This document shows positions 540 to 1,616 of a DNA stretch of 25,141 nt, piece after piece. The stretch is from a virus: positions 1 to 25,141 of IMG/VR virus record IMGVR_UViG_3300046167_000207; one strand, given 5' to 3'. The notes beneath the pieces were generated by a model that was given only the letters and a program-made list of their open reading frames with translations, had not been told where the DNA came from and ran no database searches. Each line of letters begins with the position of its first letter. The first letter of the stretch is position 1. A program made the translations under genes and the position numbers.

Positions 540-1616
540 ATGCAAAATGATAATAATACCAAACAACCTATACTCAACCATCTATCCCTCTGCACAGGAT
601 ACGAAGGTATTGGTCAAGGACTCAGAAGAGTTCTGCCAACTCTGCGAGAAATCGCTTACTCGGAAATCGAAGACTACGCTATCGCCAACTTGGTTGCGAA
701 GATTGAAGAAGGGAGACTACATCCAGCTCCTATTTTCACGAACCTTAAAACCCTCCCATTCAGAGAGTTTCTTGGAAAAGTATCTATCCTCAGTGGAGGA
801 TTCCCATGTCAGCCCTTTAGTCAAGCTGGTCTCAGAAAAGCAACCGATGACCCAAGACACCTCTATCCCTTCATCGCAGAAGGAATCTCACAATGCAAAC
901 CAGCTTTCGTTTTTCTCGAAAATGTACAAGGAATTATCTCAGCCAAAACCCACGAAGGAGAATCTGTACTCCACTATGTCTGCCGAGACTTGGAAAGCAG
1001 AGGTTACAAAGTGTCGTGGGGAATATTCTCAGCGGAAGAACTCGGCTTTCCTCACCAAAGAAAAAGGGTCTTTATCTTGGGGAACTCCAACCGAACAAAT
1101 GAGCAGAGCATCGCAGTTCGACCGAGGCAAACACAATCTAGGGGAACAAGTTCAAGGGATGAACAATACAATGAACTTTCCAACACCGAGCGTAGCGGGA
1201 TGCGTGGAGGGAGGCGTGGCGAAGAATGTGAAGATAACTCCAACGGGATTCAAAGCAACGAGGGAGAACGGAACAACTTACGGGGCGAAGTTAAGGGATG
1301 CAGTTTTGAAGAATTGGTCAACGCCAACTGCGAGGGATTTCAAGGACAGTCCAAACGACAAAACTGGTTTAGCCATGACGCTTGGGAGACAAGTGAATGG
1401 GTGGAAACCCAAATCCCAGCAAGACCAAACGAACCTCAACACGAATGGGAATACCCAAGAGTCATTACTCAGGGGATACCTCAATCCAAATTGGGTGGAG
1501 AGTCTGATGGGTTTAGACATAGGGTTGACCGACTTAGGTTACTCGGAAATGGAGTCGTGCCACAAGTAGCAGCCAAAGCATTTAAAACTTTATTGCAAAA
1601 GAATCTAACAACATAG
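540..1616 (+). CDS. DNA (cytosine-5) methyltransferase
   Basis: A 358-aa C5-cytosine methyltransferase that would transfer a methyl group from S-adenosylmethionine to cytosine in phage DNA, most simply as protection against host restriction. Motifs appear in canonical order: motif I 'LSLCTGYEGIGQG' (residues 15-27), motif IV 'GGFPCQPFS' with catalytic Cys90, motif VI 'ENV' at 127-129, motif VIII 'QRKRVFI' from Gln173, and motif X 'LGNGVVPQVA' near residue 336. Residues ~185-290, the target-recognition region, are unusually rich in N, E, R, G, Q and S. No strong ribosome binding site precedes the ATG at 540. A second long frame (547-1569) overlaps nearly the whole gene. The target sequence cannot be inferred. 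It sits between the RNA polymerase and ssDNA-binding genes, where T7 has other early genes. Confidence 0.94.
   Translation: MQNDNNTKQPILNHLSLCTGYEGIGQGLRRVLPTLREIAYSEIEDYAIANLVAKIEEGRLHPAPIFTNLKTLPFREFLGKVSILSGGFPCQPFSQAGLRKATDDPRHLYPFIAEGISQCKPAFVFLENVQGIISAKTHEGESVLHYVCRDLESRGYKVSWGIFSAEELGFPHQRKRVFILGNSNRTNEQSIAVRPRQTQSRGTSSRDEQYNELSNTERSGMRGGRRGEECEDNSNGIQSNEGERNNLRGEVKGCSFEELVNANCEGFQGQSKRQNWFSHDAWETSEWVETQIPARPNEPQHEWEYPRVITQGIPQSKLGGESDGFRHRVDRLRLLGNGVVPQVAAKAFKTLLQKNLTT
547..1569 (+). CDS. Overlapping-frame ORF inside the methyltransferase gene (candidate second product)
   Basis: A 340-aa frame starting at an ATG seven bases after the methyltransferase start and running open for 1 kb in the +1 register. 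From about residue 85 onward it contains segments I recognise from phage and prophage proteins found next to or overlapping dcm-type genes: 'SSVEDSHVSP', 'FSKMYKEL...YSTMSAETWKAEVT', 'WSTPTARDFKD', and 'LNPNWVESLMGL' near the C-terminus. That recurrence may mean a real protein, or only that databases hold out-of-frame translations of conserved methyltransferase genes. No independent ribosome binding site is visible before 547. The methyltransferase frame is certain; this one is a candidate. If real, its function is unknown. Confidence 0.4.
   Translation: MIIIPNNLYSTIYPSAQDTKVLVKDSEEFCQLCEKSLTRKSKTTLSPTWLRRLKKGDYIQLLFSRTLKPSHSESFLEKYLSSVEDSHVSPLVKLVSEKQPMTQDTSIPSSQKESHNANQLSFFSKMYKELSQPKPTKENLYSTMSAETWKAEVTKCRGEYSQRKNSAFLTKEKGSLSWGTPTEQMSRASQFDRGKHNLGEQVQGMNNTMNFPTPSVAGCVEGGVAKNVKITPTGFKATRENGTTYGAKLRDAVLKNWSTPTARDFKDSPNDKTGLAMTLGRQVNGWKPKSQQDQTNLNTNGNTQESLLRGYLNPNWVESLMGLDIGLTDLGYSEMESCHK

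Follow-up and report, generated by a model that had tools for sequence, protein, structure and literature searches.

The window analysed here is one strand of a 25,141-base virus contig, in which two open reading frames on the same strand share one kilobase of DNA. The longer frame, alpha, encodes the catalytic part of a C5 cytosine DNA methyltransferase; the second, beta, lies in the +1 register, starts 7 nt past the alpha start and covers 95% of alpha (Table 1). The end of a T7-like RNA polymerase gene flanks the locus on one side and an ssDNA-binding protein gene on the other, and beyond the latter follow endonuclease, primase/helicase, DNA polymerase and exonuclease genes, a gene order from which we conclude that the contig belongs to a T7-like phage. 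A preliminary description of this DNA had pointed to two overlapping frames open for more than 1 kb, and both are present as described; the recurring phage-protein segments that it recognised in the second frame are likewise real, as beta matches the phage protein family phrog_1008 and so do 124 of 125 beta homologues. Profile searches of Pfam and NCBIfam gave no match for beta, and a sequence search of the PDB returned insignificant fibritin matches only. The end of alpha, at motif X, is matched by the last part of the phrog_1008 profile as well, which first hinted that both frames may belong to one enzyme.

Alpha carries motif I, the PC of motif IV, the ENV of motif VI and the QRxR of motif VIII expected of a C5 methyltransferase (PF00145), and the downstream GN.V of motif X is supplied by RVDRLRLLGNGVVPQ. 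It had been thought that this frame contains all catalytic motifs up to and including LGNGVVPQ. The motifs named, LGNGVVPQ among them, are indeed in alpha, but motif IX is absent there, as it is from the alpha of every overlapping pair examined. An equivalent of motif IX lies in beta instead, and therefore we refer to a putative split C5 methyltransferase and not to a canonical single-chain enzyme. Across homologues beta ends in a near-invariant LNPxWVExLMGxPxGWT that follows 0-6 WxTP modules, and the core LNPxWVExLMGxP is found in most betas. This terminus resembles C5 motif IX, which reads LTPRECARLQGFPE in a canonical enzyme, and an hhalign comparison of beta with canonical methyltransferases placed its best position exactly on motif IX, at a P of 0.1-0.3 that is not significant alone. 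In the window copy a D and an L stand where more than 90% of homologues have P and W, and this copy could be a divergent one. AlphaFold prediction of beta alone (125 sequences) gave no confident fold, with a pLDDT of 60 and a pTM of 0.29, and no PDB match. Some close relatives gain or lose a whole WxTP module with both frames remaining open (L005:3001-4371, L006:2799-4262, L007:3001-4380), which suggests modular turnover of the recognition region. At six further loci (L139, L154, L156, L158, L160 and L161) beta continues past motif IX into additional sequence and more WxTP-like modules, and at L161 this extension holds a second NPRWVEVLMGLP.

Table 1. Features of the overlapping gene pair in the window, and the related loci at which the methyltransferase appears to lie in three pieces
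Feature	Position	Strand	Description and basis
Alpha frame	540-1616	+	C5 cytosine DNA methyltransferase catalytic subunit, 358 aa, ATG start; PF00145 5.9e-35; phrog_363 1.8e-49
Beta frame	547-1569	+	340 aa, ATG start, +1 relative to alpha; N-terminal overprinted region, WxTP modules, motif IX; phrog_1008 3.1e-14 (residues 67-329)
Tandem starts	540-549	+	Alpha ATG at 540, beta ATG at 547, 7 nt apart
Alpha motif I	582-614	+	LSLCTGYEGIG, SAM binding; sequence and alignment of alphas
Alpha motif IV	798-821	+	GFPCQPFS, catalytic Cys; sequence and alignment of alphas
Alpha motif VI	918-926	+	ENV; sequence and alignment of alphas
Beta conserved segment	991-1035	+	WKAEVTKCRGEYSQR, +1 over the alpha motif VII-VIII region, invariant W149; beta alignments
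Alpha motif VIII	1053-1073	+	HQRKRVF; alignment; divergence switch just downstream
Beta WxTP-type modules	1078-1476	+	WGTPTEQ.., FPTPSVAG.., WSTPTARDFKD..; putative target-recognition region
Beta motif IX equivalent	1480-1530	+	LNPNWVESLMGLDIGLT, near-invariant in 125 homologues
Alpha motif X	1521-1565	+	RVDRLRLLGNGVVPQ; alignment; overlaps the beta end
Apparent three-piece locus	L069:2955-4283
Apparent three-piece locus	L118:2980-4644
Apparent three-piece locus	L120:1870-3324
Apparent three-piece locus	L128:2956-4245

A first scan with beta returned eight loci, one of which (L001) is the window sequence save one base; all eight have both frames in the same register, and the diverged ones share about 37-45% beta identity. 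Profile scans provided 80 loci picked by beta and 80 picked by alpha only, and 80 more came from a second scan by alpha only, for which the catalytic domains of bacterial relatives served as query; in each case these are the best-scoring loci of the scan and not a random sample. Among the 160 best-scoring viral loci picked by alpha alone, every one has a beta homologue in the +1 frame (80/80 in each scan), and motif IX was recognisable in none of the 80 alphas of the second scan. At one locus of the first alpha-picked set, L148:2873-4030, a stop cuts the beta frame into two pieces, the sole such case in that set. Scanning bacterial genomes by the beta motif gave 66 loci, from Bacillota, Pseudomonadota, Desulfovibrio-type bacteria, Actinoplanes, Verrucomicrobia and others, and nearly all of these loci, picked as they were by beta, hold alpha with beta in +1. 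The exceptions are two loci with motif IX in the alpha frame (L203 and L233) and a few that run off the end of a contig or contain only part of alpha. Isolate phages that carry the pair infect Paenibacillus, Acinetobacter, Salmonella, Klebsiella, Stenotrophomonas, Lacticaseibacillus and Mycobacterium, and Microcystis phage Mel-JY01 is also a carrier; by DNA similarity to one Salmonella phage copy, a related gene is present in 4 of 5,426 complete E. coli genomes. Most records that we opened annotate one frame alone (Salmonella phage S9-5, Acinetobacter phage ABMM1 and others), and Tadhana and Firecracker have both. In uvDeep1-GF2-KM23-C739 (L010:1012-1955) the alpha N-terminus and the remaining alpha stand in different frames, probably through a frameshift, and the annotation of that record mixes the two frames.

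Relatives in which the division of motifs differs bear on what beta is. At L203:1913-3169, from a Pelosinus MAG, one open reading frame contains motifs I-VIII, WPTP modules, LNPDWVECLMGFP and motif X; such a chain may never have been split, may have been re-fused, or may reflect a sequencing frameshift. A beta-like N-terminal reading frame is also seen there in the other frame, at 2055-2522. For this single chain AlphaFold gave a confident structure of the catalytic domain and of motif X alone, leaving residues 198-381 without one; two mixed alignments for this prediction were discarded, since MAFFT aligned alpha fragments with the beta modules. At L233 the alpha frame has LNPDWVEWLMGFP immediately followed by motif X, and the modules are read in the other frame. 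In other relatives (Firecracker gp6/gp5, L176, L177, L209, L229, L124 and L164) the beta frame itself carries motif X, after the modules, such that the Firecracker proteins divide the enzyme into I-VIII and modules plus IX and X. It is this position between motifs VIII and X, more than the profile match, that speaks for the beta C-terminus as a motif IX equivalent. At four loci (L069, L118, L120, L128) alpha ends immediately past motif VIII, and its linker is crowded with stops. Beta is unbroken at all four, and the alpha frame retains a short piece with motif X. This piece has an AGGAG-preceded ATG in L120 and L128, a GAGG-preceded ATG in L118 and no ATG in L069. The sub-clade thus appears to be split into three pieces (I-VIII, modules plus IX, and X), and as the four loci are mutually related, the three-piece state may represent one event. 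The preliminary description had proposed a search for stand-alone homologues of the second-frame protein and for copies encoded without an overlapping methyltransferase. No fully separate beta was found among these loci, although beta is partly separated from alpha in some and its C-terminal part occurs in one chain with alpha in others.

Because the +1 pairing holds in all loci picked by alpha, because the motifs of the two proteins are complementary, and because single-chain and partly split relatives exist, we consider it very probable that beta is a subunit of the same C5 methyltransferase as alpha, one that would contribute the target-recognition domain (TRD) and motif IX and would act in complex with alpha. 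The suggestion that the second frame might encode a specificity partner is borne out to the extent that beta carries motif IX and the stretch in which single-chain enzymes have their target-recognition domain.

Selection was assessed with a simplified form of published overlapping-gene tests, in which isolated substitutions in 26 non-overlapping pairs of homologues were classified by their effect in both frames. Calibration was by a flanking-gene control, for which 58 genes beside the pair at these loci were read in +1 as a fake beta. Over the whole overlap, dNN/dNS was 0.123 [0.099-0.152] and dSN/dSS 0.238 [0.189-0.297] for beta, and 0.139 and 0.269 respectively for alpha; the fake frame gave 0.79 [0.65-0.97] and 1.34 [1.08-1.67]. 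The constraint is unevenly shared along the overlap. Up to motif VIII the values were 0.065-0.075 for alpha and 0.27-0.31 for beta, with a beta dSN/dSS interval not bounded below 1 in the middle third of this N region; in the linker from VIII to X they were 0.10-0.16 for beta and 0.32-0.50 for alpha. The ratio of position 3 to position 1 changes is inverted within 20 codons of motif VIII, and the divergence pattern, dominated by alpha before the motif, is dominated by beta from just beyond it. Such a pattern marks two proteins, each of which prevails in one half of the overlap. The preliminary description had proposed to measure synonymous-site constraint in the methyltransferase frame and dN/dS in the second frame, and had named stops in the latter among close homologues and unreduced synonymous variation as what should count against dual coding. 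Synonymous variation is reduced, beta is conserved under its own purifying selection (0.12-0.24 in the 26 pairs), and no such stops were found save at one locus in 80 (L148). That the locus is genuinely dual-coding we regard as very likely.

How the two products are made bears on the most durable of the competing readings, programmed frameshifting, by which a single chain would shift from alpha to beta after motif VIII and return for motif X. Single-frame L203 joins the alpha N-part, the beta C-part and motif X in one protein, and the switch in constraint falls just after motif VIII, both as such a mechanism would have it. However, selection also acts (0.27-0.31) on the N-terminal half of beta, a part that would be absent from a frameshift product, most marine loci have a conserved beta ATG that is mostly preceded by a Shine-Dalgarno (SD) sequence, and motif X in alpha would demand a second shift. 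Of the 108 viral loci in which a beta start could be recognised, 14 have the 7-nt start spacing of the window type and 79 have overlapping ATGTG starts, with the beta ATG followed two bases on by an alpha GTG. In 72 of these 79 the GTG is the sole alpha start codon from 70 nt upstream on, and in 67 of the 79 an SD-like sequence precedes the beta ATG. The start arrangement, together with selection on the N-half of beta, favours separate initiation of the two chains over frameshifting, and we consider the latter improbable.

A second possibility is that beta is an independent accessory protein, anti-restriction or regulatory, which acts apart from catalysis. Beta does have its own start and its own selection, and the lack of a confident AlphaFold fold leaves some room for such a role. 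It would nonetheless have to be explained why beta lies in the +1 frame of alpha at every locus of both alpha-picked samples, why its C-terminus sits between motifs VIII and X in the single-chain L203 and is fused to motif X in others, and why alpha is without motif IX. We judge an independent role very unlikely, and for the anti-restriction protein raised in the preliminary description nothing was found in favour, beta being the part that is missing from the methyltransferase frame.

It was also suggested that the second frame might be an artefact of constraint, in that out-of-frame translations of dcm genes look conserved in their own right. Chance alone was considered in two ways. When alpha was recoded synonymously 20,000 times with the phage's own codon usage, the +1 frame held 14.7 stops on average, and its longest run, of 316 codons, fell short of the 342 observed. 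When alpha's own synonymous codons were shuffled, the +1 frame had a mean of 10.3 stops, a minimum of 2 and a longest run of 343 codons. A chance open reading frame was considered and rejected. Zero stop counts over regions that had been chosen for being open in both frames follow from that choice and were given no weight. The +1 frames of ten other phage genes hold 8-91 stops, with longest runs of 39-126 codons. For a control with dcm-type genes, a PF00145 search of 20 bacterial genomes that carry such a locus identified further methyltransferases, and those retrieved as loci were classified. All the alpha-type methyltransferases in this set have beta. The 19 others have no beta match; their +1 frames hold 7-40 stops and stay open for 28-161 codons at most. 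By a strict pattern, canonical motif IX is present in the methyltransferase frame of 7 of the 19, and the motif IX region is present in all 18 of them that were aligned. Conserved alpha residues do impose some similarity on the +1 frame, and selection is dominated by alpha up to motif VIII. Yet the explanation, whereby the methyltransferase protein and codon usage keep a second frame open and conserved-looking and databases hold mistranslated dcm genes, is scarcely credible given beta values of 0.12-0.24 against 0.79-1.34 in the fake frame, a beta that is the more constrained frame downstream of motif VIII, the closed +1 frames without beta similarity in other methyltransferases of the same genomes, and four loci at which beta is open where the alpha linker is full of stops.

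We therefore return to the split methyltransferase and propose the following account of it. Alpha would serve as the catalytic subunit, with motifs I-VIII and X, and beta as a second subunit supplying what alpha lacks, namely the WxTP modules, the probable site of target recognition, and motif IX. Both chains would be initiated in the same start region, at the two tandem ATG codons in the window and, in most relatives, at overlapping ATGTG starts that may share one Shine-Dalgarno sequence. Together the alpha and beta chains would form a single enzyme for the modification of phage (or host) DNA, with protection against host restriction as its probable purpose. Concerning origin, a frameshift past motif VIII may have split what was a single-chain gene. 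Each half would then have overprinted the other, beta growing back across the catalytic region and alpha growing forward across the TRD/IX region as far as motif X. Given the series of intermediate states, this route is on balance the probable one. A requirement of beta for activity, the DNA target and the direction of evolution are matters of inference.

More broadly, it seems reasonable to expect, if with some reserve, that a major C5 family of phages and bacteria is obligately dual-coded, marked by an ancient split after motif VIII, mutual overprinting, often ATGTG starts and a three-polypeptide sub-clade (L069, L118, L120, L128), and that it ranks among the most widespread overprinted pairs of prokaryotic viruses. 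If this is true, many phage and prophage proteins annotated as DNA cytosine methyltransferase are half an enzyme, with the other half unannotated wherever annotation permits only one of two strongly overlapping genes, and recoding the codons of the annotated gene for cloning would destroy its partner. The family would also offer an unusually well-populated system for the evolution of two proteins from the same DNA, as it includes single-chain, two-piece and apparent three-piece states, and modular recognition units that gain and lose copies yet leave both frames open.

Parts of this system are already on record. The alpha and beta matches, phrog_363 and phrog_1008, are both named 'DNA methyltransferase' and are kept as separate families, and their match lists do not state that the two are frames of one locus. 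Paenibacillus phage Tadhana gp54/gp55 is similar in that both overlapping frames are annotated as DNA methyltransferase, but its beta is shorter, with an annotated start 202 nt inside alpha, and we found no dual-coding analysis of this pair in the literature. Nor did full-text searches of a limited library find an open-access paper describing the generality of a dual-coded C5 family, and it may have been reported elsewhere. The ShiLan domain (PMC11855218), an HNH endonuclease encoded out of frame within a phage methylase gene, is likewise an alternative-frame protein in such a gene. It is, however, a homing insertion element with an HNH nuclease, and an insertion of this type was rejected for beta, which is no insertion and bears the missing methyltransferase motif. 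In the split C5 methyltransferase M.AquI, motif IX is on the second polypeptide (PMC3404938). Motif X of M.AquI is also on the small subunit, whereas here it stays in alpha; an AquI-like division is found among the relatives, in Firecracker gp6/gp5 and L177.

The closest known system, judged by sequence motifs alone, is M.EcoHK31I, which has the same division of motifs into an alpha with I-VIII and X and a beta with IX. Its beta gene is said to lie inside the alpha gene in another frame, as Lee, Kam and Shaw reportedly described in 1995, and the same nesting is found here (540-1616 and 547-1569), with both frames under selection. M.EcoHK31I recognises YGGCCR and is a naturally split, two-subunit C5 methyltransferase (PMC3439449), with a large subunit of motifs I-VIII and X and a small subunit that has motif IX only; its predicted TRD was assigned to the large subunit (PMC3404938). 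The present pair differs in that beta spans 95% of alpha, shares its start region (7 nt) and holds variable WxTP modules. It differs also in its carriers, which are marine T7-like phages and many others, and in a pairing that is near-universal in the family samples.
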